A DNA stretch of 64,000 nucleotides from Candidatus Gagatemarchaeum stordalenia (GTDB lineage: Archaea; Thermoproteota; Nitrososphaeria; Nitrososphaerales; Gagatemarchaeaceae), in NCBI GenBank assembly GCA_003164815.1, contig PLUF01000094.1, positions 1 through 64,000 on the forward strand, in the 5' to 3' direction. The position numbers were made by a program, and so were the translations under genes. This document shows, piece by piece, positions 4,570 through 27,592 of the stretch. Position 1 is the first letter of the stretch, and every line of letters begins with the position of its first letter. The notes below the pieces were generated by a model that had not been told where the DNA came from, did no database searches, and was given only the letters and a program-made list of their open reading frames with translations.

Positions 4570-5241
4570 GTGACGAGAGTGGCTCGCGGCGGAAGAGGCC
4601 CCTCTGAGGATCACGGGGTCTCGGCGATCCTGCTCGCGGCGGGGCTCTCCACCCGCTTCGGGAAGACCAAGCAGCTGGCGGACCTCGACGGCACGACGCT
4701 AGTCAGGCGGGCCTACTCGACGCTCCGGCAGACGCTCGTCGGAGATGTCGTCGTCGTTGTGGGGCACAGGGCGAGCCGGGTAGCGAGCGAACTGCGGGGG
4801 ACGAGCGCGAGGGTCGTGGTTAACGAGGGGTATGGTACGGGAATCGGCTCGTCGCTCAGGGTCGGCGTCTCGGCCCTCGGCGACGAGAGCCGGGCGGTCG
4901 TGGTCTGTCTTGCGGACCAGCCGTTCGTCACCTCTGGGCTCATCAATCGGATCATCGCGAGGCATCGCAGGACTGGGGCCGAGGTAGTTGCCTCTGTCTC
5001 CGGGGACCTCGTCAGCCCGCCGGTGCTCTTCGGCAGGAGGCTCTACGGCGAGCTGGCGGGACTGAGCGGAGACAAGGGCGCCAAGTCGGTGATCACGAGG
5101 CACGCGGGGTTCGAGAAGGTCAGGGTAAGGCCAGACGTCCTCCTCGACGTGGACTCGGAGGAGGACCTCGAGAGGGCGCGGAGGATCCTGAAGGCCGGCG
5201 GCGTCACAGGGACGACAGGCCGGCCAGTCGGTGGACCCTGA
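4570..5241 (+). CDS. MobA/MocA-like nucleotidyltransferase (molybdenum cofactor)
   Basis: 223 residues from GTG at 4570 (a second GTG at 4579 is possible). The N-terminal LLAAGLSTRFGKTKQL is the nucleotide-binding loop of NTP_transf_3 enzymes, followed by a CLADQPFV motif with the metal-binding aspartate. MocA moves CMP, and MobA moves GMP, onto molybdopterin; the LAAGxSxRFGxxK form looks closer to MocA. Its last 38 bases overlap the end of moeA on the other strand, so it sits beside the moa operon it would serve. It probably shares the transcript of the LLM gene 8 bases upstream. Confidence 0.75.
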   Translation: MTRVARGGRGPSEDHGVSAILLAAGLSTRFGKTKQLADLDGTTLVRRAYSTLRQTLVGDVVVVVGHRASRVASELRGTSARVVVNEGYGTGIGSSLRVGVSALGDESRAVVVCLADQPFVTSGLINRIIARHRRTGAEVVASVSGDLVSPPVLFGRRLYGELAGLSGDKGAKSVITRHAGFEKVRVRPDVLLDVDSEEDLERARRILKAGGVTGTTGRPVGGP

Positions 5242-6460
5242 CCAGCTCCCCGTTCTTCAGCGCGGTGGTCGCTTCCCCCACAATCAGGTACCCGTCGCTC
5301 TGCGTGAGGAATGTGATCTTCTCTGTCTCGCCTATCGAGGGTTCGACGATGACCTCCTCCCCCTCGGTCTTCATCCTAACGTAGACGACCTTCGTGAAGT
5401 CGCGGTACCGCTTCCCCACGTCCCAGTCGCTCCCCACCCTCGCAGGGATTGAGGGGGGCGACTCGAACCCCCTCCCAAGGAGCGCTCGTATCAGAGGGTA
5501 CACCATCACCACGAAGGCGTTCACCGCGCCCTGAATCGGACCGGGGAGGATCACCACGGCCTTGCCGCGTGCCACCCCGAACCCCATGACGCGGCCGCGG
5601 TGGACCTTCATCCCGTGGACCAAGACGCCGGGCCTCCCCGCGCCGTCGATCGCCTGGTCTGCCAGGTCGGTGTCGCTGACCGACGAGCCGGCGACCGTGA
5701 GGACGACATCGGCGACGCTGAGTCCGACGCTGATGCTCTGTCCTATCTCGCCCGCGTCGTCGCGGACTATGGGCATGTGCACGGGGATCGCGCCCGCGCC
5801 CTCCACCAGCTTTGAGAGCAGGAGCGTGTGCGTCTCCGCCACCTTCCCCGGTTCGGTGTCGCCGATGGACTCGCTGAGCTCGTTGCCCGTTGGGATTATC
5901 GCCACCCTCGGTTTTGCGTACACGGGAATCGTCTCCATGTGCAGAGAACCAAGGAGGACCAGGTCGGGCCCTCTCAGCGTCCGACCCGCGTCCAGTACCG
6001 TGTCCCCCTTCTTGACGTCGCGACCCCTGGGGTAGACGAACTCTCCCTTGGCCGCGGGGTTCGGGACCTCGACCGCACCAGGGCTCACCTTGACCCTCTC
6101 GACCTGGACCACAGCGTCGGCGCCAGCCGGGAGGAACCCACCCGTGAGGATCGAGTGTGCGTCGCCTTTCTTCAGGACGCGGTTCGGTATCTCGCCGAGC
6201 GCGCTCCCCTCCACCCTCCGAAGGCGCACCGGGCTCGAGGGGGACGCGGCGGCTAGGTCCGAAGACCTCACAGCGAATCCGTCCATGTGCGAGCTGTCCC
6301 TAGTGGGTATGTCATACCTCGAGAGGACGTCGCCGTAGAGCACGCGCCCATAGGCCCGCCCGAGGGGGACCGTCTCGCGCCTCGGTGCGACCTTCGCGTT
6401 CTTCTTCAGCAGTGCCATCGCCGCCTCGAGCGACGTGTAGCTTGTGAATTCTCGGACCAA
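5204..6460 (-). CDS. moeA: Molybdopterin molybdenumtransferase MoeA
   Basis: 418 residues with the MoeA domain order: SHMDGFAVRS (adenylylated molybdopterin site), the LTGGFLPAGADAVVQVE block, the MPT-binding IIPTGNEL region and a C-terminal beta domain. The enzyme inserts molybdate into molybdopterin. An open frame continues upstream to 6982 but overlaps moaE out of frame and has no MoeA similarity. I place the start at TTG 6460, preceded by GGAGGG eight bases earlier and 14 bases after the moaE stop. The GGSVSDT-like region reads VAGSSVSDTD here, a small departure from the usual TGGVSVGD. Last gene of moaA-D-E-moeA. Confidence 0.9.
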   Translation of the reverse strand: MVREFTSYTSLEAAMALLKKNAKVAPRRETVPLGRAYGRVLYGDVLSRYDIPTRDSSHMDGFAVRSSDLAAASPSSPVRLRRVEGSALGEIPNRVLKKGDAHSILTGGFLPAGADAVVQVERVKVSPGAVEVPNPAAKGEFVYPRGRDVKKGDTVLDAGRTLRGPDLVLLGSLHMETIPVYAKPRVAIIPTGNELSESIGDTEPGKVAETHTLLLSKLVEGAGAIPVHMPIVRDDAGEIGQSISVGLSVADVVLTVAGSSVSDTDLADQAIDGAGRPGVLVHGMKVHRGRVMGFGVARGKAVVILPGPIQGAVNAFVVMVYPLIRALLGRGFESPPSIPARVGSDWDVGKRYRDFTKVVYVRMKTEGEEVIVEPSIGETEKITFLTQSDGYLIVGEATTALKNGELVRVHRLAGLSSL

Positions 6461-6474
6461 CTGAGAACCCTCCG

Positions 6475-6939
6475 CTAGGGAGATCCCTGCCGTCCACCGC
6501 GGCTCGAGCCCATGGTCCTGCCATCGACCCACCTCTCCTGGCCATCGGCGAGGCGCTCCTTCTTCCAGATGGGTACGTCGTGCTTTATGCTCTCTATGGC
6601 GCGCCTGCAGGCTTCGAAGGCCTCGGCGCGGTGGGGGGCGGAGACCGCGACTGCGACGCTCACCTCTCCCACGCTCAGCTCCCCGATCCTGTGCTGCATG
6701 GCGACCTTCCCGGGGTGCAGAGAGCGCCTCACATCCTCCTCGATCTCGAGCATCCTCTTCTCGGCCATCGGGACGTAGGCGTCGTAGACTATCCTGTCCA
6801 CGCTCCCGGCTTCGCTGTTGTTCCTCACCGTGCCGACGAAGAGCACTGCCCCGCCGGAACTGGGGTCGTCCGTCTCGGCCAGGATTGCCTGGACGTCTAT
6901 ACGCGAATTGGTTACCCTCTCTGCGTTCTTCAATCTCAA
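6475..6939 (-). CDS. moaE: Molybdopterin synthase catalytic subunit MoaE
   Basis: 154 residues. GAVLFVGTVRN, the YDAYVPMAEKRM segment, the HRIGELSVGE strand and the IKHDVPIWKKE motif with catalytic lysines match MoaE. With MoaD it adds two sulfurs to precursor Z. The start is TTG at 6939, which overlaps the moaD stop in the four bases TTGA, so the two subunits are translationally coupled. The last 12 residues are a basic Gly/Arg tail absent from many homologues. Confidence 0.92.
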   Translation of the reverse strand: MRLKNAERVTNSRIDVQAILAETDDPSSGGAVLFVGTVRNNSEAGSVDRIVYDAYVPMAEKRMLEIEEDVRRSLHPGKVAMQHRIGELSVGEVSVAVAVSAPHRAEAFEACRRAIESIKHDVPIWKKERLADGQERWVDGRTMGSSRGGRQGSP

Positions 6940-7187
6940 CCACCTGCGACGGGAGGAAGCAGCGCGACGACGTCTCCGTCACGGAGCAACTGGCCTGGCT
7001 CGGCGATCTCCTCGTTGACGGCAGCCTGCATCGACCCTCTCAACTTCTGGATCTGAGAGTGCGCCAGCGACGACCTTTCGACTAGATTGTCCACCGACGA
7101 GCCGTCCGGGAGCACGTAGTCCTCCTCTCCCTTGCCCGCGGCGTCCCGCGCCTGCCCGAAGTAGAGCAGCCTGACGTGGATCGGCAA
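6936..7187 (-). CDS. moaD: Molybdopterin synthase sulfur carrier MoaD
   Basis: 83 residues of the ubiquitin-like fold ending in PPVAGG; the C-terminal Gly-Gly is the site that becomes a thiocarboxylate. LLYFGQARDAAG at the N-terminus is typical. The start is TTG at 7187, four bases after the moaA stop, with a purine-rich GGTAGAGG upstream. It overlaps moaE by four bases. Confidence 0.9.
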   Translation of the reverse strand: MPIHVRLLYFGQARDAAGKGEEDYVLPDGSSVDNLVERSSLAHSQIQKLRGSMQAAVNEEIAEPGQLLRDGDVVALLPPVAGG

Positions 7188-7191
7188 ACCT

Positions 7192-8214
7192 CTACCCGCC
7201 GATGGTGTACATTGGCCGCACGTGCTTGAGCTCCGCGCCTCCCTTCAGCATGCTCTCGACCCCCTCTGACTTTAGCATGAAAGTGCTGCGCAGGTATCTG
7301 GAGATCTCCTCGTCGCCCGCCCCTCCCCTGAGCAGCGGCTTTAGCTCGTACTCTGCCTTGCTGAAGAGGCACGGGACCATCCTCCCGTCCGCCATCAGCC
7401 GGATCCTGTCGCAGTCTGAGCAGAACGGCTTCGTCATGGAGGCGATGATGCCGATCTCTCCCCGGGAGCCGTCGGCGAACCTGTGGTGCACCGCGGTCGC
7501 GCCGTGCTCGCGTTCGAGTGGGATGAGCTCGTACTTCTCCTCGATACGCCGGATGATCTCCTCCCCGCTCACGACCCTCTCAGGGTCCCAGACCTTCGTC
7601 CCGTCGAAGGGCATGTACTCGATGAAGCGGACGGAGACGCCGGCGTCGTGCGCCATCTTCGCGAACTCGGGTATCTCGTCCTCGTTGCAGCCTCTCGTCA
7701 CCACGCAGTTCACCTTCACCCTCTCGAATCCGACGGCCCGAGCCTCTTCGAGCCCCTCCATGACCCGCCAGAACATGTCCTTCGTCCCCGTTATGGCATC
7801 GTAGCGTTCCGGTTTGAGGCTGTGGAGGCTGACGGTCACGCAGTGCAGCCCGCTCTCCTTCAACGCCCGCGCCTTCTGCTTCAGAAGCGCCCCGTTGGTG
7901 GTAAGCGCCACGACCTTGATCCCGGGGACCTCGACCAGCATCTTCACGAGCGTCTCCAGGTCCTTCCTGACCAGAGGCTCCCCGCCGCTCAAGCGGATCG
8001 AGCTGACGCCCATCCTGGCGGTAATCGTGGACACCCTGGCGATCTCCTCGAAGGTGAGGACCTCCTTCTGGTCGAGCCAGACGGGGGTGGTAGGCATGCA
8101 AAAGTCACATCTGAAGTTGCAGCGGTCGGTAACCGAGAGACGGAGCTTCCGAGCGTGGCGGCCGAAGGAGTCGGCGAGCCTTTCGGAATCAAAAGCCTGG
8201 GAAGCAGGAGCCAA
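7192..8214 (-). CDS. moaA: GTP 3',8-cyclase MoaA (radical SAM)
   Basis: 340 residues. The radical SAM cluster motif CxxxCxxC is at C32, C36 and C39, followed by the SGGEPL SAM-binding motif near 77-82. The second iron-sulfur cluster ligands are C265, C268 and C282, and the protein ends in Gly-Gly, as active MoaA proteins do. It converts GTP to the cyclic precursor with MoaC, whose gene lies 13 kb away at 21.5 kb. The start is TTG at 8214; no ATG or GTG gives a full N-terminus. First gene of the operon, with a TATA-like box and a palindrome upstream. Confidence 0.93.
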   Translation of the reverse strand: MAPASQAFDSERLADSFGRHARKLRLSVTDRCNFRCDFCMPTTPVWLDQKEVLTFEEIARVSTITARMGVSSIRLSGGEPLVRKDLETLVKMLVEVPGIKVVALTTNGALLKQKARALKESGLHCVTVSLHSLKPERYDAITGTKDMFWRVMEGLEEARAVGFERVKVNCVVTRGCNEDEIPEFAKMAHDAGVSVRFIEYMPFDGTKVWDPERVVSGEEIIRRIEEKYELIPLEREHGATAVHHRFADGSRGEIGIIASMTKPFCSDCDRIRLMADGRMVPCLFSKAEYELKPLLRGGAGDEEISRYLRSTFMLKSEGVESMLKGGAELKHVRPMYTIGG

Positions 8215-17501: not shown

Positions 17502-19823
17502 CTAGAGATAGCCCCAGGCGAAGAGCATGTCTGAGTCCTTGGACCACCTGCGACCAATGTCGTCCCGGTAGAACATGTTCGGGAGCATCACGTTCTTCAC
17601 AGACTGGTAGGCTTGGGAGATTGCCTCCTGCATCGTCATGCCAGACCCTGTAACGACCAGAGAGTATCCTGACCTCCCTGCCAGTTTCCAATCACCCTCC
17701 TCAAGCTTGACCTCCCCGATGTGGATTCCGTTGAGGTTTGGCTTCCTGAAGAGGATCGTCGCGTCCTCGGAGTACTTCCTGAAGGCCTTCTCGTCCTCGA
17801 ACGGGAAGGGCGGGACCGCGATCACGACGCCGATCTGGTAGCCCCGCTTGCACTTTAGCTGGGTCGGCTTTCCGCGGGCGATGTCGCTGAGAAACGTTCC
17901 CCATTCGCTCAGTACGCCTTCCATGTGAATCGATATGGTCGGATATCCAAATCTCGTCGTGAACTCGAGAGGGAAGACTCCCTTGCCGTTGGCTATGCAG
18001 TTGATGTCGATGTAGCCCACGTACTTCGAGGCCCGAAGCTGTTCCTTCATCCTGCCCAGCGTAAGATCGAAGATCTGGTTCGGCTTAGACCACAACATCG
18101 AGGTATTCCCGCACCAGTACGGCTTTCCGTTTCTGCGCACATACATTATGTGGTTCTTCACGGTTGCACAGTAGACTGTTCCGTCGTAGTCGATGGTGTG
18201 TGTGTCTCTTTTGTCTATCCAGGAATCGAGCTTCCTAACACACTCGTGAACTTCGTATTGCAGCCCTGATGCGTCGGCATCGTGATCTCCAATCCTTATC
18301 CTCCCGCTTCTCTTCCGCTCTTTTACGATGCCGATCCTCCCGACCTTCAGAAGCAACTCCTGGACACCGTCGGCAAGGTTCGGTGAGGCAGTGTAGAAGA
18401 TTCGGAACCCCTTCTCCATCAGGGTCCCATCACCCAAAGAGTACCAGTCGAGGAAAGTGGCTATTTGTCTGGGCGAGGCCTCCTTCACGAATCGTGGAAC
18501 ATATTTTTCTCGAGCGCCTCCGAACTCATCCAGGAATGTGCCCAGCTGTTTGTCGTAGCAGTAGAACTCACCCTCTCCTCTTGTGAACCTGAAGGGGAGG
18601 CTAGATAGCAGGCTTGCTATCCTCTCGGATTTCTCTCCTGTCTTCTGCGCCACATCTATCCTGAAACTCTCGTGGCTCCTGCTCACAGAACCGTCAGCGA
18701 GCCAGATTCCGAAGAACGCAAGCCAGTCATCCATCGGCAATTGCCTCTCGCCGCTCCCGTGCATCACCACCTGGCGCCCTTCGTAATGTCCGATTGAGAC
18801 CGAGGGCAGGGTGAAGACGGCACACTCGGAACCCGTCCAAGCTGCGGTCCTCTTGATGCGCGATTGGGTCTGCAGATCTTTGGCCTTTACGAATTTGAAG
18901 GAATTGCGATGTTTCTTCGCGTCTTGTTGGGATTCGACGTACATGTTATGGTCCGGAGTTACCATTATGTCCAGGGCGCGGTTCTGAATCGAGATCAGCT
19001 TCTTGTGGTGCGTGAAAGACACTAGGCCACTGGGCCTCTCGTACTCAATGGTATTGTTCGACGGGTTTAGTGTACAGATCTCATCGTCCGAGCATAACTC
19101 CTTGAAGAACTTCCAGCCTTGCATAGTCAGGACCTCCGTCTTATCGTCGTAGCATCCCATCTCGCCGGTGCTCGGTCCGATGTCGTTCGGGAAGAGACGT
19201 TTGTGCTCGAAGTTGACGTTGACCGGCTCCACGAAATCGGTGCCGTTGAAGAAGGCGCCGACCGCTATCTCGACGCCTTGAGCATACTTCTGAAGCAGGA
19301 AAACCTTGATCTTGCTCGACCACTTCTTCTTGTAGTGCTCGAGGACCTGCTCGACGTCTTTCCCGTCCTCCTCCTGTCCGACGAAGAGCAGCTCCTTCTC
19401 GTTCTGCGCCTTGCCGCTGGGCTTTATCACGTAGCGGTCCGGGTTCAGCTTGATGAACGCAATGGCCTCGTCGAAGGAGGTGAAATTCCAGCTCGGGAGT
19501 ATCGGCACCCCGGCCCTCTTCAGCTCTTCCTGGCCGAACTCCCTGTCATCCTCGAGCCGGTCGGTGTACGCGGTTCCCCCCACGACGAACTTCCCTTCGG
19601 CCCTGAGCTTCTCTGCGGTCGCGGCGAACCCGATGTCGTCGAAGATTATCACGTCGGCCCAGTCCTTTTGGGGCTCCCACTGGTCGACCTTCTGCACGAA
19701 GCCGTCCCCCACGTCCTTTTCGCTCGCGTCCTGGACGAAGAAGTTGACTTCATGGCCTTCCTTCTTTAGCTGCCACGCCAGGTCTACCGAGAGCGCCTCA
19801 CGCGTGACGAAGAGGAACTTCAA
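17502..19823 (-). CDS. purD: Phosphoribosylamine-glycine ligase-like ATP-grasp protein with intein
   Basis: 773 residues, of which 224-573 are an intein, leaving a 423-residue host of PurD length. The host has the ATP-grasp core (YVIKPSGKAQNEKEL near 131, VEIAVGAFF near 184, PLEFTTRFGYP after the intein) and GPSTGEMG, the equivalent of GPNTGGMG in PurD. The usual N-terminal GSGGREHA motif is missing; the start reads MKFLFVTREALSVDLAWQL. It is therefore a divergent PurD or a close ATP-grasp relative; the purine step is inferred. TTG at 19823 follows a TATA-like box at 28-31 bases. Confidence 0.75.
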   Translation of the reverse strand: MKFLFVTREALSVDLAWQLKKEGHEVNFFVQDASEKDVGDGFVQKVDQWEPQKDWADVIIFDDIGFAATAEKLRAEGKFVVGGTAYTDRLEDDREFGQEELKRAGVPILPSWNFTSFDEAIAFIKLNPDRYVIKPSGKAQNEKELLFVGQEEDGKDVEQVLEHYKKKWSSKIKVFLLQKYAQGVEIAVGAFFNGTDFVEPVNVNFEHKRLFPNDIGPSTGEMGCYDDKTEVLTMQGWKFFKELCSDDEICTLNPSNNTIEYERPSGLVSFTHHKKLISIQNRALDIMVTPDHNMYVESQQDAKKHRNSFKFVKAKDLQTQSRIKRTAAWTGSECAVFTLPSVSIGHYEGRQVVMHGSGERQLPMDDWLAFFGIWLADGSVSRSHESFRIDVAQKTGEKSERIASLLSSLPFRFTRGEGEFYCYDKQLGTFLDEFGGAREKYVPRFVKEASPRQIATFLDWYSLGDGTLMEKGFRIFYTASPNLADGVQELLLKVGRIGIVKERKRSGRIRIGDHDADASGLQYEVHECVRKLDSWIDKRDTHTIDYDGTVYCATVKNHIMYVRRNGKPYWCGNTSMLWSKPNQIFDLTLGRMKEQLRASKYVGYIDINCIANGKGVFPLEFTTRFGYPTISIHMEGVLSEWGTFLSDIARGKPTQLKCKRGYQIGVVIAVPPFPFEDEKAFRKYSEDATILFRKPNLNGIHIGEVKLEEGDWKLAGRSGYSLVVTGSGMTMQEAISQAYQSVKNVMLPNMFYRDDIGRRWSKDSDMLFAWGYL
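18105..19154 (-). mobile_element. Intein in purD, with LAGLIDADG endonuclease
   Basis: Residues C224-N573 (350 residues), inserted between GPSTGEMG and TSMLW. Block A begins with Cys (CYDDKTEVLT), block B is VTPDHN, the two DOD motifs are GIWLADG (D377) and YSLGDG (D465), and block F is VYCATVKNH. The C-terminus is WCGN followed by Thr. The penultimate residue is Gly, not the usual His. Both endonuclease aspartates are kept, so homing may be active. GC content is lower than in the host parts. Confidence 0.92.
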
Positions 19824-21403: not shown

Positions 21404-21480
21404 AGTCGGGCTTGTCGACACCGCATCGCTCAAGGTCATTAGCCCAATCATCGGCTCGGCGTGACGCCGGCCGCGACAAA

Positions 21481-21490
21481 GGCTAAATCC
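21481..21490 (+). promoter_or_regulatory. TATA-like box that decides the moaC start
   Basis: GGCTAAATCC is centred 26 bases before ATG 21512. Upstream candidates at GTG 21461 and ATG 21503 would lie before or too close to this box. Confidence 0.45.
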
Positions 21491-21511
21491 GCTGCCGTAA
21501 GGATGTGCGGC

Positions 21512-21952
21512 ATGGATATCAGACAGGCGGACATATCGGCGAAGCCGGTCTTGTTCCGGGAGGCCACGGCCTGGGGCCGAATAATGCTCAAACCGGAGAC
21601 GGTGAAGCGGATCAAAGAGGGCAGGCTGGAGAAGGGCGACGCCCTCGCCATCTCCAAGACGATGGCGGTCGTTGCGGCGAAGTCCACGCCCGACATGCTC
21701 GCGCTCTGCCATCCCCTGAGGATCGAGAGCACGCGGGTGGAGACCAAGCTGAACAGGGACTCGATCGAGGTCACCGTTGAGGTGTCGGCCCACGAGAAGA
21801 CGGGGGTAGAGATGGAGGCCCTGACGGGTGTGGGCATCGCCCTCCTGAACATCTGGGACGTCGTGAAGGCCTACGAGAAGGACGACGAGGGGCAGTATCC
21901 CTCGACGAGGATAGAGGAGATACGCGTCCTGAGGAAGGCGAAGCACGAATGA
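21512..21952 (+). CDS. moaC: Cyclic pyranopterin monophosphate synthase MoaC
   Basis: 146 residues. The ALCHPLRI motif with the catalytic His, the VEVSAHEKTGVEMEALTGV block and NIWDVVKAYEKDD are diagnostic. It completes the first molybdopterin step with MoaA. The frame is open from GTG 21461, but the family N-terminus and the TATA box favour ATG 21512 (or ATG 21503). The stop overlaps the moaB start (ATGA). Confidence 0.92.
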   Translation: MDIRQADISAKPVLFREATAWGRIMLKPETVKRIKEGRLEKGDALAISKTMAVVAAKSTPDMLALCHPLRIESTRVETKLNRDSIEVTVEVSAHEKTGVEMEALTGVGIALLNIWDVVKAYEKDDEGQYPSTRIEEIRVLRKAKHE

Positions 21953-22479
21953 AGGCGCAGGACTCACACAGGGACGCGGCGCCGAAGCAGCTCGGATTCT
22001 ACATCGTCACGGTAAGCTCGAGCAGGTACGCAAAGAAGGAACGCGGCAGCAGGTTCCGGGACGAGTCGGGCGACATTGCCGAGAAGCTCGTCGAGAAGGC
22101 GGGGCACAGGCTCGCCGGGAGGGAGCTGATATCGGACGACAAGGCGATGCTCGAGGGCTCCCTTGTGAAGGCCCTGGCCAACAACGAGGCTGACGTCGCG
22201 ATCTTCACCGGCGGGACAGGCGTCTCGCCGCGCGACATCACCGTCGAGGCCATCCAACCCCACTTCGAGAAGGAGCTCGAGGGGTTCGGCGAGCTGCTCC
22301 GCTCGATCAGCTACGCGAAGATAGGCGCGCCGGGAGTGCTGACGCGGGCCACCGCCGGACTCATAGGCGGGAAGCTCATATTCTGCCTGCCCGGCTCGCC
22401 CGACGCGGTCGAGACCGCGCTGAACATCTTCATGGGCGACATCCCGCACGTGATCTACATAGCTCGGAAGAGCCCCTAG
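21949..22479 (+). CDS. moaB: Molybdenum cofactor biosynthesis protein MoaB/Mog
   Basis: 176 residues. The IFTGGTGVSPRDITVEA motif near residue 85 and LPGSPDAVETALN near 155 are the molybdopterin-binding features of MoaB/MogA, which adenylates molybdopterin before MoeA acts. An extra N-terminal 15 residues precede the GFYIVTVSSSR strand. It overlaps moaC by four bases, so these form a second Moco operon 13 kb from moaA-D-E-moeA. Confidence 0.9.
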   Translation: MKAQDSHRDAAPKQLGFYIVTVSSSRYAKKERGSRFRDESGDIAEKLVEKAGHRLAGRELISDDKAMLEGSLVKALANNEADVAIFTGGTGVSPRDITVEAIQPHFEKELEGFGELLRSISYAKIGAPGVLTRATAGLIGGKLIFCLPGSPDAVETALNIFMGDIPHVIYIARKSP

Positions 22480-22587: not shown

Positions 22588-25500
22588 CTACTGGCCCTGA
22601 TTGTAGGCGACCATGCTTATCATCCCGGCGACCCTGAAGGCTACTTCCTTGAACGCGAGGCTCTCGGGAGAGTCCGGCGCGGCGATTACCATCGGCACTC
22701 CCAGGTCGGACTGTTCGCGGATGCGCGGGTGGAGCGGGATGTCGCCGAGGAACTGCACGTCGAGCGCGGCCGCGGCCTTCCTCCCGCCGCCGGAGGAGAA
22801 GATGAACGACTTCTCTCCGCAATTGTGCACCACTTGATATGGTGTGCAGTAACTATTGTCCTCCTCGACACGGAGATTGTAGACCTTGCCCGAATATGGG
22901 AACCGCCTAACATTCTTGACTCTCAAGTACACGTAGTCATTGTCGAAGCGAGTTCTCTTGGACAGGGTGAATCCAACCCTGAATATCCTATTCGCCCGAA
23001 CCCTTCGACCCTGAATTATCGCGCTGCCTCTGCGCACTGTGATGGAGGGAACGTATCCAAGTTTAAGCCCAATCTCCCGGAAAGCCGCGGCAAGCTGCAA
23101 CGAGATTGTTGTGGCACTCGACTCAATCTCCGTTCGGTGCCCGTCTCCGTTAAGGTAGCTCTCAAAAAGCCAATGGAGTTTCTGAGGAGGCAAAAGCCTA
23201 ACCCAAAGAGGAATACGCTTAGACTTGGCACCCCTTCCAAATTCAAGCGCGAGCCATCTAGCGAGAACTACCGAAGATATCTCCACTCTCCAGCCGGATT
23301 CTCCCTTGTAGAGATTAGGTCGGAAACCCAATCTTGAGGAGGCGGCAGTGAGTTCCATCGCGAAGCGAAGCTCCTTTTCAACCTTCCCAAATGTGAATCT
23401 CACCGCACAAACGCCTCGATTCTTCCGTTCGGCGATGGACCCCTCCGCCAGGTAGTACCCGAGCAGAATCATGAAATCTGGGCCAACGGGAAGGCTGACT
23501 TTCTTTTCCCTGTGATAATAGGGGGCGCTGAATTCCAATCGCTCCATATCCTCAATCTGGACAGTTCGTGGAAAAGCGATGAGATCCGTTGATCCACCTT
23601 CCTTCGCTACTTGGATCCTCGCGGCCTCCTCCCACATGAGTTCAGTCAAGAAGTTTCCAGCCATCCTATGTGAAAGATGTCTCGTCAGGATAGGATGATC
23701 TTCCGTGAGAGTTAGCTGGAATTCTGGAGTTCTTGCTGATTTCGTGCCAATCTCCACCATTTGACCAGTGAAATCGCGTTCGAACTTTTCAGCAACGCGT
23801 CTGTATCTTCCCTTATGCGTCGCGACCAGATCCCCAACATTTACTTCTGAAATCGGGACTAGACCATTCGCTGTTACGATTCTCTGATGGGGCGGAAGAC
23901 AGTGGGGGCAGACGAAGTAGCTCATGTTCTCCACCATCCCGAGGATCGGGACGTTCAGCTTCCTGAACATCCCCACAGCCTTGGTGGCGATGTTGAGGGC
24001 GGCCTCCTGCGGGGTGGTCACTATCACGACTCCTCCGAGGGGGACGGTCTGTGCGAGCGTCAGTCCGCTGTCCCCCGTGTTGTGGACCACGAAACCGTTA
24101 GCTACGAAATTCTCAAATTCCTCCACCTGCAGGTCGTAGGTCTCCACTTCTCCCGCGGGTTCAATTGCAGTTACTCGTGCTATCTTGAAAGGTCGTGGAT
24201 CGAGTTTCATCGAGCACTGGAAGGCGTATGACGTCACATTGTAGCACTCTCTCCCTCTAGGGAGCTTCTTGACTTCATCAGACGACTCTAGCACGTTACC
24301 GGCTCGGAGGCCGCTCATCGCACAGAGCTCGTGCATCTGACGAACGAGTAGTTCGTTCGTGCTCTCCATTTGCACCGTCTCCTGGACGATTGTCACTACC
24401 CGTTGCAGCCCACGCCAATCGGGCAACGATTTCGTCGTCTCCCTGTGCCGAATGGTCGCGTCCGCTTCAGAGTATCCTCGAATGAACGCCAGTCTCTGGT
24501 CTAGGGGAAGCCCGAAAATCCAATCCGGGACCCTCTTGGCCGCTGCCTTGTGATTCAAATCAAGGGCGGTGAACATCTTCGCGAGAGGTGCGGAACCTAT
24601 CGCGAACTTCTGGCCACCGTTGTCGTCGAATGTCTTGCAGGCAAAGACCTTCCTGTAAAGAGATTCATAGGTCTCTCTGAACTTGCTCCCTCTGGGCTCG
24701 CAGATTCGGATCCCTACCGGGTCCTTCTTTCCCTTCTGGACTTTGAAACCCTCCCCTACGAAATGTCCGACGACGCGCATGAAATCAGGGGTCGTCTTGG
24801 CAGGGAGGCTGATGAATCGAGAGTCGTGGTCTGTCTTCGGAAGAGTGAGCGGTTGTCCGCCTTCGATGCAATTTGCGACAATCACCCTGTCTCGGATCTT
24901 GAGTTGACCGACACTCCTCCACGTCAACTTTCTATGGTACTTGAGGAAGGGGTGGTTCCCGCTCGCAAGAATCGTCCTGTTGGGCGTCCTTATTCTGTAG
25001 ACTCGTTGCTTCCCCTGCGGAATCACTCCGACCACCCGCCGCGGTACGAGCTTCTCGCCATCATGGCTCAGCACAAATTCTCCAACCCTGATTTGCTCGA
25101 TCGGCTTTGGAACATTATTGGCGGTAAGTACGAAAGTTCCCGCGGGAAGACAACCAGGGGGGAGATCGACTACCAGGTAGTCGAGGTCGCCCCAGTCGAC
25201 CTGGGTGAGGAGCTGCCTGACGGCCCCCGCGACCATGGGCCCCCTCCAGACCAGAGGCGTCTCGTCCTTGTAGAAGAACCCGAGTGAGGCCACCTTGAGG
25301 CCGTGGGCCACTGGGGGTATGATCGTCTCACCCCTTATCTCCGGGCGTCCGCTGACTCCCATCATCAGCGGTATGCTCGGGCCGTAGACGTCCGCGTCGA
25401 GGATGCCCACTTTGGCTCCTGACCCCGCCAGGGCCAGGGCAAGATTCACCGTTACGGTAGACTTGCCGACCCCTCCCTTGCCGCTCGCCACGGCGATGAT

Positions 25501-25794
25501 GTTCTTCACACCCTTCAGGATCTCCTTGTCTCCGGAGGGGTGGGTCGCGGCGACCTGCGCCCCGACCTTCATCTCGACCGTCCTTACGCCCTTCACGGAC
25601 GCCGCCGCCGCCCGAGCCTCCTGCTCAATCTTCGCCCTGAGCGGACAGGCCGGCGTTGTGAGATTGAGTGTAAAGGCAACCTTGTCGCCATCGATGCTTA
25701 TGTCCTGCACCATGTTGAGCTCCACGAGGTCCTTTCGAAGCTCCGGGTCGGTCACTGACCGGAGCGCCTCGAGAACTTCCTCCTTCGAGACCAT
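22588..25794 (-). CDS. Mrp/ApbC/NBP35-type iron-sulfur carrier ATPase, with two inteins
   Basis: 1068 residues; removing inteins at 215-572 and 632-991 leaves a 350-residue Mrp. The host has an N-terminal MIP18/DUF59 domain (1-80), the deviant Walker A SGKGGVGKST (104-113), DADVYGPS, DLPPGTGD across the first insertion and ENMSYFVCPHCGE across the second. The two cysteines of CPHC hold the bridging 4Fe-4S cluster in the dimer; the second Cys is also the +1 residue of intein 2. It carries and delivers Fe-S clusters in the cytoplasm. ATG 25794 lies 28 bases from a TATA box. Confidence 0.93.
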   Translation of the reverse strand: MVSKEEVLEALRSVTDPELRKDLVELNMVQDISIDGDKVAFTLNLTTPACPLRAKIEQEARAAAASVKGVRTVEMKVGAQVAATHPSGDKEILKGVKNIIAVASGKGGVGKSTVTVNLALALAGSGAKVGILDADVYGPSIPLMMGVSGRPEIRGETIIPPVAHGLKVASLGFFYKDETPLVWRGPMVAGAVRQLLTQVDWGDLDYLVVDLPPGCLPAGTFVLTANNVPKPIEQIRVGEFVLSHDGEKLVPRRVVGVIPQGKQRVYRIRTPNRTILASGNHPFLKYHRKLTWRSVGQLKIRDRVIVANCIEGGQPLTLPKTDHDSRFISLPAKTTPDFMRVVGHFVGEGFKVQKGKKDPVGIRICEPRGSKFRETYESLYRKVFACKTFDDNGGQKFAIGSAPLAKMFTALDLNHKAAAKRVPDWIFGLPLDQRLAFIRGYSEADATIRHRETTKSLPDWRGLQRVVTIVQETVQMESTNELLVRQMHELCAMSGLRAGNVLESSDEVKKLPRGRECYNVTSYAFQCSMKLDPRPFKIARVTAIEPAGEVETYDLQVEEFENFVANGFVVHNTGDSGLTLAQTVPLGGVVIVTTPQEAALNIATKAVGMFRKLNVPILGMVENMSYFVCPHCLPPHQRIVTANGLVPISEVNVGDLVATHKGRYRRVAEKFERDFTGQMVEIGTKSARTPEFQLTLTEDHPILTRHLSHRMAGNFLTELMWEEAARIQVAKEGGSTDLIAFPRTVQIEDMERLEFSAPYYHREKKVSLPVGPDFMILLGYYLAEGSIAERKNRGVCAVRFTFGKVEKELRFAMELTAASSRLGFRPNLYKGESGWRVEISSVVLARWLALEFGRGAKSKRIPLWVRLLPPQKLHWLFESYLNGDGHRTEIESSATTISLQLAAAFREIGLKLGYVPSITVRRGSAIIQGRRVRANRIFRVGFTLSKRTRFDNDYVYLRVKNVRRFPYSGKVYNLRVEEDNSYCTPYQVVHNCGEKSFIFSSGGGRKAAAALDVQFLGDIPLHPRIREQSDLGVPMVIAAPDSPESLAFKEVAFRVAGMISMVAYNQGQ
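22822..23901 (-). mobile_element. Mrp intein 2, inside the Fe-S CxxC motif
   Basis: Residues C632-N991 (360 residues), between CPH and CGE. Block A is CLPPHQRIVTANG, block B is LTEDHP, the DOD motifs are GYYLAEG (E784) and YLNGDG (D884), the terminus is QVVHN and the +1 residue is Cys. The His-Asn end is canonical. GC is about 48% in sampled lines against well over 60% in the host. Confidence 0.94.
24079..25152 (-). mobile_element. Mrp intein 1, inside the DLPPG-TGD nucleotide motif
   Basis: Residues C215-N572 (358 residues), between DLPPG and TGDSGLTLAQ. Block A is CLPAGTFVLTANN, block B includes ASGNHP, the DOD motifs are GHFVGEG (E348) and GYSEADA (D445), the terminus is FVVHN and the +1 residue is Thr. 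Little identity to intein 2 is visible beyond the blocks, so the two probably arrived separately. Confidence 0.94.
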
Positions 25795-25827: not shown

Positions 25828-25882
25828 TGGCCCCGGCCCGCTGACCTGAGGCGAAGTGACAGGAATCTGCGGATACCAAGAT

Positions 25883-25892
25883 TTCATTAACA
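25883..25892 (+). promoter_or_regulatory. TATA-like box for cofE-cofD
   Basis: TTCATTAACA is centred about 31 bases before ATG 25919. The upstream GTG at 25856 would precede the box, so it is unlikely to be the start. Confidence 0.45.
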
Positions 25893-25918
25893 TCCTTCTC
25901 ATGGGCCTGATGTTCGAA

Positions 25919-26671
25919 ATGGACGGAATGGTTCAGGTCTTTCCCCTCCGTGGGATCCCGCGCGTGAAGCCAGGCGACGACCTGCTCGAGTACCTCGCGC
26001 GGTCCCTCGAGGACGGTGGGATTGTCCTCCAGGACTCTGACGTGGTGGTGATAACTCAGAAGGTGGTCTCGAAGGCAGAGGGGAGGGTGGTCAAGATAGA
26101 CGATGTCCGTCCCGGGAGGAAGGCGAAGCTCCTGGCCGAGGAGCTCGGGAAGGACCCCAGGACGGTCCAGGTTATCCTGGGCGAGTCCAAGAGGGTCGTC
26201 CGGAAGGGCCACGGGGTCCTTATCATGGAGACGAAGCATGGTTTCGTCTGCGCCAACGCAGGCATAGACCAGTCGAACGTCGAGGAGGGATACCTGACTC
26301 TGCTCCCCGAGGACCCTGACAGGAGCGCGAGACGAATCAGGAAGAAGCTCGAGGCCGCGACGGGGAAGAAGCTGGCTGTGGTGATCACCGATACCTTCGG
26401 GAGGCCGTGGCGGGACGGCCAGATCGACGTGGCGATCGGCTGCTCGGGCCTGGCGCCCCTGGAGGACCTTGTGGGGACGACCGACCCCTATGGCCACATG
26501 CTCCGGGTGACCCAGCCCGCCATCGTGGATGAGATCGCCTCTGCCTCGGAGCTGGTGATGAGGAAGCACTCGCTCACCCCCGCGGCCGTCGTCCGGGGGG
26601 TCACCTACAAGCGCGGAGACGCGGGCGTGCGCAGCATAGTCCGGGAAAGACGGATGAACCTCTTCAGGTGA
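25919..26671 (+). CDS. cofE: Coenzyme F420-0:L-glutamate ligase CofE
   Basis: 250 residues, the family length. VFPLRGIPRVKPGDDL at the N-terminus, VITQKVVSKAEGR, VCANAGIDQSNV and ITDTFGRPWRDGQIDVAIG are signature blocks of CofE. It adds glutamates to F420-0 using GTP. An open frame reaches GTG 25856, but the start at ATG 25919 (or 25928) matches family N-termini and the TATA box. cofD begins 15 bases after the stop. Confidence 0.92.
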   Translation: MDGMVQVFPLRGIPRVKPGDDLLEYLARSLEDGGIVLQDSDVVVITQKVVSKAEGRVVKIDDVRPGRKAKLLAEELGKDPRTVQVILGESKRVVRKGHGVLIMETKHGFVCANAGIDQSNVEEGYLTLLPEDPDRSARRIRKKLEAATGKKLAVVITDTFGRPWRDGQIDVAIGCSGLAPLEDLVGTTDPYGHMLRVTQPAIVDEIASASELVMRKHSLTPAAVVRGVTYKRGDAGVRSIVRERRMNLFR

Positions 26672-26686
26672 GCTGCCCTGAGACTC

Positions 26687-27592
26687 GTGGTCCTCGCTGG
26701 CGGGACGGGCTCGGCGAAGCTTCTGAGGGGCCTAAAGGGGGAGGCGGGCGAGTTCACCGTGATCTCCAACGTGGCCGACAACTTCTGGCATCACGGCCTG
26801 TACATCGCGCCCGACGTCGACATCGCGGTCTACACGCTCGCGGGGCTCGAGGACGCCGTCAGGGGATGGGGGCTGAGGGGCGACACCTTCAACTCGCTGG
26901 GCCAGTTGGCGAGGATGGGCGAGGAGACGTGGTTCAACCTGGGTGACAGGGACCTGGCGACCCACATCTTCAGGACCGAGCAGATGGGTCGCGGGAAGAG
27001 GCTGGGGGAGATCACAGCGATGATGTGCGCAAGGCTGGGAGTGAGGCAGAGGGTTATCCCGTGCACGGACGACAGGCTGGAGACCTACGTGACGACGAGG
27101 ACGGGGGCGATGCACCTCCAGGAGTTCTGGGTGAAGAACAGGGGCGAGCCGGAGGTCGAGGGGGTGGAGTACAGGGGCGAGGAGGGCGCGAAGCCGGAGC
27201 GGGGCGCGATCGAGGCGCTCGACGCCGCAGAGAGGATAGTCTTCTGCCCCGCCAACCCTGTGACGAGCATCATGCCTATGCTCGCCGTCGGCGGAATCAG
27301 GGAATCGATTGTCAGGAGCAGGGCGAGGAAGGTGGCCGTCTCTCCGATGGTCGGCGGCGCGCCGGTCACGGGGCCGGCCGGGAAGCTGATGAGGGCGATC
27401 GGCCTGGAGCCGAGCTCGCTCGCGGTCTCGAAGCTATACAGGGGGCTGATCGACTGCATGATGGTGGACCCCGCGGACGCGCACTACGCGGAGGCCATGC
27501 GTGCGGAAGGTGCGAGAGCAGTCGTGGGATCCATACTCATGAGGACGCCCGCTGACGAGGTCCAGCTGGCTCGCGAAGTCCTGAGCGCGTGA
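26687..27592 (+). CDS. cofD: 2-phospho-L-lactate transferase CofD
   Basis: 301 residues. VLAGGTGSAKLLRGL at the start, NVADNFWHHGLYIAPDVDIAVYTLAG, FNLGDRDLATHIFR and the late CPANPVTSI and MVGGAPVTGPA motifs identify CofD, which joins the lactyl (or related) phosphate unit to Fo. The start is GTG at 26687; CTG at 26678 would place the ribosome site AGGTGAG at better spacing and add three residues. Co-transcribed with cofE. Confidence 0.92.
   Translation: MVLAGGTGSAKLLRGLKGEAGEFTVISNVADNFWHHGLYIAPDVDIAVYTLAGLEDAVRGWGLRGDTFNSLGQLARMGEETWFNLGDRDLATHIFRTEQMGRGKRLGEITAMMCARLGVRQRVIPCTDDRLETYVTTRTGAMHLQEFWVKNRGEPEVEGVEYRGEEGAKPERGAIEALDAAERIVFCPANPVTSIMPMLAVGGIRESIVRSRARKVAVSPMVGGAPVTGPAGKLMRAIGLEPSSLAVSKLYRGLIDCMMVDPADAHYAEAMRAEGARAVVGSILMRTPADEVQLAREVLSA

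Follow-up and report, generated by a model that had tools for sequence, protein, structure and literature searches.

A mobile intein at a cluster-ligand cysteine of the Fe-S carrier Mrp in Candidatus Gagatemarchaeum stordalenia

Inteins are known to occupy conserved sites of their host proteins (PMC2814812), and in the oxygen-labile enzyme MoaA of P. abyssi, as PMC10663303 describes for Callahan 2011, splicing is blocked by a disulfide between a cysteine of the N-extein and Cys1, the first residue of the intein. Similarly, splicing of the SufB intein of M. tuberculosis is sensitive to reactive oxygen and nitrogen species (PMC6195587), and the Pol II intein of Methanoculleus marisnigri is described (Nicastri 2013, cited in PMC4031507) as being switched by an internal disulfide. 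The host discussed in this article is Mrp, whose CXXC motif holds a bridging [4Fe-4S] cluster (PMC6345978), and a literature search for an intein in Mrp found none. I will describe an mrp gene that has two, one of them placed at a cysteine of this motif, and I will then consider the inteins found at Fe-S ligands across the family.

The window analysed here is a 64,000-nucleotide stretch of Candidatus Gagatemarchaeum stordalenia (positions 1-64,000 of contig PLUF01000094.1 in assembly GCA_003164815.1, genome label G000), and the mrp frame in it (Table 1) matches the NUBPL/Mrp, DUF59, intein splicing, Hint and LAGLIDADG domains of Pfam and NCBIfam. When the frame is cut at canonical intein borders it falls into pieces of 214 + 358 + 59 + 360 + 77 residues, and the three exteins join into a host of 350 residues that is 85% identical, across residues 1-350, to the intein-free Mrp of a relative (G002). 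As in the Mrp/NBP35/ApbC Fe-S carriers (PMC6345978; PDB 8zkc, 2ph1), the protein would carry, once spliced, both the Walker A GKGGVGKS and the cluster CxxC, and the deviant Walker A of Mrp, GKGGhGK[ST], is present as GKGGVGKST; unlike those carriers, the gene bears two inteins. Genes for molybdopterin (MoeA, MoaE, MoaA, MoaC and MoaB-like) and F420 (CofE, CofD) flank mrp at 5204-8214, 21461-22479 and 25856-27592.

Table 1. Positions in the window of the mrp gene, its exteins, its two inteins and the residues discussed in the text; a slash marks the point of insertion.
Feature	Position	Strand	Remark
mrp open reading frame	22588..25794	minus	1068 aa; DUF59 (MIP18-like) + Mrp/NBP35 P-loop ATPase, two inteins inside
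N-extein	25153..25794	minus	214 aa, host residues 1-214; DUF59, Walker A GKGGVGKST, C-terminal end DLPPG
Intein 1	24079..25152	minus	358 aa, DLPPG/TGD, +1 Thr; lineage apart from intein 2
Middle extein	23902..24078	minus	59 aa, host residues 215-273; C-terminal end CPH
Cys(-3)	23908..23910	minus	host Cys271, cluster CxxC ligand 1; invariant, 28 Mrp aligned
Intein 2	22822..23901	minus	360 aa (1080 bp), CPH/CGE
Intein 2 Cys1	23899..23901	minus	block A nucleophile; completes a CPHC with Cys(-3) before splicing
Intein 2 block B	23695..23706	minus	TEDH (TxxH)
Intein 2 LAGLIDADG motif 1	23437..23466	minus	LLGYYLAEGS
Intein 2 LAGLIDADG motif 2	23140..23169	minus	LFESYLNGDG
Intein 2 block G	22822..22833	minus	VVHN, C-terminal splice junction
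Cys+1	22819..22821	minus	host Cys274, cluster CxxC ligand 2 + splicing nucleophile
C-extein	22591..22821	minus	77 aa, host residues 274-350

The preliminary description had given the borders of intein 2, with CPH before and CGE after 360 residues, and these are exact; it had also proposed to align the joined host with Mrp proteins, and that alignment runs end to end with the intein-free relatives and lays CPHC on the CxxC of the two structures, being CSNC in E. coli Mrp/ApbC (PDB 8zkc) and CPNC in the archaeal protein 2ph1, also a PDB match. The motif is kept in 28 of the 28 Mrp aligned and both host cysteines are invariant. The claim that the +1 cysteine is the second cluster ligand is borne out. 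The ten residues around the insertion are of only average conservation (rank 0.485), yet the cysteine is invariant. No further Mrp with a CxxC was found in the genome, and the sole other Mrp-like protein found there (L205, contig C72, 79800-81500) has neither CxxC nor intein, so the intein-bearing gene probably must splice for Fe-S carriage to take place; the population may also hold an mrp allele that lacks the intein, because the assembly is a draft (115 contigs, 96% complete, 5% contamination).

Intein 2 is a full open intein in which blocks A, B, C, E and G were all found, and it is thus not a chance resemblance. Cys1 stands at its first position both in this copy and in the one other copy known from the family (genome G010), block B reads TEDH or TEEH, and the end consists of a penultimate His and a terminal Asn followed by Cys+1 (VVHN/C). 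Block F reads YNL and not YDL, a departure that may bear on the rate of splicing and that weighs somewhat against the assignment; Asn is usual at this place among the +1-Cys inteins examined, and Asp is frequent among inteins, neither universal nor strictly defining. The LAGLIDADG domain is recognized by PF14528 (E=5.7e-10), and both of its motifs are, like blocks A, B and G, intact in the two copies. The third-position GC content is 0.54 against 0.82-0.90 in the host, a deficit shared by 78 of 85 inteins and hence a general property of inteins here. A PDB sequence search with intein 2 gave 0 matches, and AlphaFold, given the middle extein, intein 2 and C-extein as a single sequence, returned a mean pLDDT of 36, too low for the model to be of use. 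Judged by its sequence, intein 2 is an authentic intein of class-1 type that carries a LAGLIDADG endonuclease domain and occupies a ligand cysteine of an Fe-S carrier.

Compared with the described systems, intein 2 shares with that of P. abyssi MoaA an Fe-S host and an N-extein cysteine that might pair with Cys1 in a disulfide, which would stop the first step; it differs in that its host is a carrier of Fe-S clusters and that a second intein sits in the same protein. With the M. tuberculosis SufB intein (PMC6195587, PMC8891592) it has in common a host in Fe-S biogenesis, a length of 359-360 residues, an endonuclease and a +1 Cys, although the host here is Mrp, the SufB inteins of the family have no Cys at -3 and intein 2 lies on a different branch of the tree. 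The M. marisnigri Pol II host is a DNA polymerase whose cysteine is not known as an Fe-S ligand, whereas the Mrp cysteine is one. The junction of that polymerase intein reportedly reads CPGC, against CPHC in Mrp.

If the residues present act by standard class-1 chemistry, Cys1 would attack the bond between His(-1) and itself, the acyl group would be transferred to Cys+1, and cyclisation of the terminal Asn would restore the host CPHCGE, so that splicing would create the site at which the Mrp dimer binds its bridging [4Fe-4S] cluster. Prior to splicing, host Cys(-3) would be paired with intein Cys1 as a decoy CPHC, and because a disulfide or a bound metal at this pair would block the first step, splicing is, by analogy, probably sensitive to oxidation. 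Here the preliminary description, which held that the cluster site is absent before splicing, needs to be amended: the mature ligand pair is indeed split, but the precursor has a CPHC of its own made of Cys(-3) and Cys1. Nor can intein 2 be the only gate, for the intein at DLPPG/TGD, which the preliminary description does not mention, must splice too, and the ATPase and the cluster site come into being only once both are removed. I infer the splicing itself, its redox sensitivity and any effect on Fe-S delivery from these features.

The two inteins of mrp have separate histories. In a maximum-likelihood tree of 62 inteins they stand on separate branches, from which it follows that mrp was invaded twice, intein 1 clustering with the NuoB-b and histidine ammonia-lyase inteins and intein 2 with a zinc-ribbon intein (starred branches). 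The site of intein 1 is filled in about ten other family genomes (G001, G003, G005, G006, G007, G008, G014, G026, G035 and G038), and G006 has two mrp copies (L040, L071), of which one contains intein 1 while the other has an empty site. A third intein, of 350 residues (GEMG/C...GN/TSML), lies within 8 kb, inside an ATP-grasp protein at 17502-19823 (minus) that resembles phosphoribosylglycinamide synthetase (PF01071, PF02843), and the same type occurs in G010 (L223). In addition, a split zinc-ribbon-like sequence, CKY/CGTLIP...CPYCGG, is found at the ends of contigs C109 (L187) and C80 (L189) of the same assembly, without a clean overlap.

Intein 2 is rarer, being present in two of the 46 family genomes. 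The preliminary description had suggested a search of relatives for the same insertion, and this turned it up in G010, of the same family and another genus, where the site of intein 1 is empty and that of intein 2 is filled by an intein 63% identical, with zero indels over 360 residues; in nearly all other relatives, including G002, the closest by host sequence, the site is empty. No intein-bearing Mrp was detected elsewhere in the phylum among 398 genomes (E<=1e-25), a scan of IMG/VR gave no match, a tblastn search of phages gave no donor and only distant inteins, none above 29% identity, in methylases and genes of that sort, and a scan of genome contigs returned four loci, all of them intein-free Mrp flanks. 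Between the two copies the fourfold-degenerate sites are saturated (0.34 identical), and the endonuclease region, with 65% amino acid identity, has held up at least as well as the N-terminal splicing part with 55%, the value for the host being 71%. These sequence comparisons show purifying selection on the endonuclease domain, and 63% identity without indels, together with a conserved nuclease at saturated synonymous divergence, is the pattern expected from a functional homing cycle, so that I infer homing activity. The empty site in the closest host relative and the distribution over two of the 46 genomes mark the element as mobile and dispensable. It is therefore very probable, in my opinion, that a mobile class-1-type LAGLIDADG intein invaded mrp at the codon of an invariant cysteine and that it persists since only exact excision keeps the protein.

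One could instead read the same site as an evolved redox or iron gate, in which splicing that is slow and sensitive to oxidation would keep back a reserve of Mrp, an intact cluster site appearing only in reducing, iron-sufficient cells. The CxxC geometry of Cys(-3) and Cys1 is that of the MoaA trap (PMC10663303), which gives partial support to the regulatory effect proposed in the preliminary description; the genome yielded no other CxxC Mrp, SufB of the same family is also intein-bearing, family inteins with a +1 Cys occupy many Fe-S ligands, and among 24 distinct +1-Cys sites nine have Cys at -3 while each of the other upstream positions has it at 0-2 sites, in a sample partly gathered by similarity to intein 2 and hence not an unbiased census. 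However, all the intein-free Mrp aligned already have the -3 Cys as a ligand, so it did not arise to control the intein and does not point to selection for a switch; the excess of Cys at -3 is to be expected where insertion strikes conserved metal-binding CxxC motifs, a common kind of metal site; a sporadic presence that skips the nearest relative argues against a needed regulator; and purifying selection on the endonuclease domain is explained by selfish homing. An oxygen-sensitive switch is possible by analogy, an evolved gate of this kind is unlikely, and I think that placement at a ligand cysteine brings the oxidation sensitivity with it as a by-product and that no switch has evolved.

Two further scenarios concern where intein 2 came from. 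The nearest relative of both Mrp copies is the CKY/CGT intein of G000 contigs C109/C80 (support 100/97), 37% identical to intein 2 and, like it, splitting a CxxC, so one may imagine a lineage specialised for a C-x-x/C-G coding motif whose endonuclease carried it between two genes of this genome, mrp and one for a zinc ribbon; but the DNA around the two sites matches at 20 of 54 bases, a chance level that 20 of 51 random CxxC-anchored sites reach, and the zinc-ribbon gene is divided over the ends of two contigs, its halves being not certainly one gene, which leaves this origin doubtful while worth keeping in mind. As for a duplication within the gene that made both Mrp inteins from one, similar lengths (358 and 360 residues) and a shared gene are what speaks for it, intein 1 is widespread where intein 2 is lacking, and the placement of the two with different partners in the tree rules it out, so that I give it virtually no credence. 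The reading I prefer is still that of independent invasion by a mobile element at the codon of an invariant cysteine.

Now considering the family as a whole, inteins occur in 45 of the 46 genomes. In a catalogue built up from the relatives of intein 2, which reaches into other families as well, the Cys at +1 binds an Fe-S cluster at about ten positions, spread over seven protein families. Besides CPH/C in Mrp, these include CPG/CGD in the 2-oxoacid:ferredoxin oxidoreductase beta subunit, YGR/CVFC and CGL/CVDAC in NuoI, TAC/CSVE and MGA/CITGG in NuoB (MGA/CSITGG at L104, L117 and L175), CSY/CQN and CSWA/CSYC in the AmmeMemoRadiSam radical SAM protein, and GYGCTT/CIGNSG in aconitase, where the cluster CxxC is split (L131 in G013, L148, L102 and L159); NPV/CGD in NifU and CHF/CTDYC in NuoI come from other families. 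The ligand roles of the split cysteines in Mrp, NuoI, NuoB, oxidoreductase beta, NifU, aconitase and radical SAM proteins I take to be established. In the SufB of family members the insertion (IEG/CSAP) is at the active Cys, and inteins further interrupt two zinc-ribbon-like CxxC motifs. Some proteins are occupied twice: five NuoI-like loci (L032, L035, L036, L171 and L176) have a pair of inteins separated by a few residues, the one at the first Cys of a single 4Fe-4S motif and the other at the third, and NuoB at L104, L117 and L175 has them at two different cluster ligands of what is apparently one gene. Among the AmmeMemoRadiSam enzymes at L179, L183 and L208, inteins are found at two different Cys of CxxxCxxC. 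In a histidine ammonia-lyase-like protein (L098, G023) an intein splits GSLGA/SGD, from which the MIO cofactor is built.

The share of such sites varies between genomes, from one of about nine inteins in G017 to five of at least seven in G013 (a single contig, 100% completeness), where the hosts are aconitase, oxidoreductase beta, NuoI, NuoB and the radical SAM protein. The inteins at Fe-S sites are not one clade in the 62-intein tree, which has seven label changes, at least five of them forced by supported branches, and on this tree the colonisations of Fe-S ligands are polyphyletic. The recurrence extends the rule of inteins at conserved sites (PMC2814812), and I regard it as a more interesting lead than regulation, a reading that is unproven. 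It would be bolder to say that Fe-S ligand cysteines are a preferred and repeatedly colonised niche and that the chemistry of Cys(-3) with Cys1, or of a ligand cysteine at +1, ties the maturation of a large part of the Fe-S proteome to the redox state of the cell, and this I consider improbable.

With Mrp, the hosts of inteins gain an Fe-S carrier, inserts of such a kind being already known. As one residue would serve both as the splicing nucleophile and as a cluster ligand, the gene provides a natural test of redox- or metal-sensitive splicing at metal ligands, for which the intein-free Mrp of close relatives is the control. For the family, the recurrence at Fe-S sites poses the question of whether it reflects the known preference for invariant Cys, Ser or Thr, or a niche that may have regulatory consequences.
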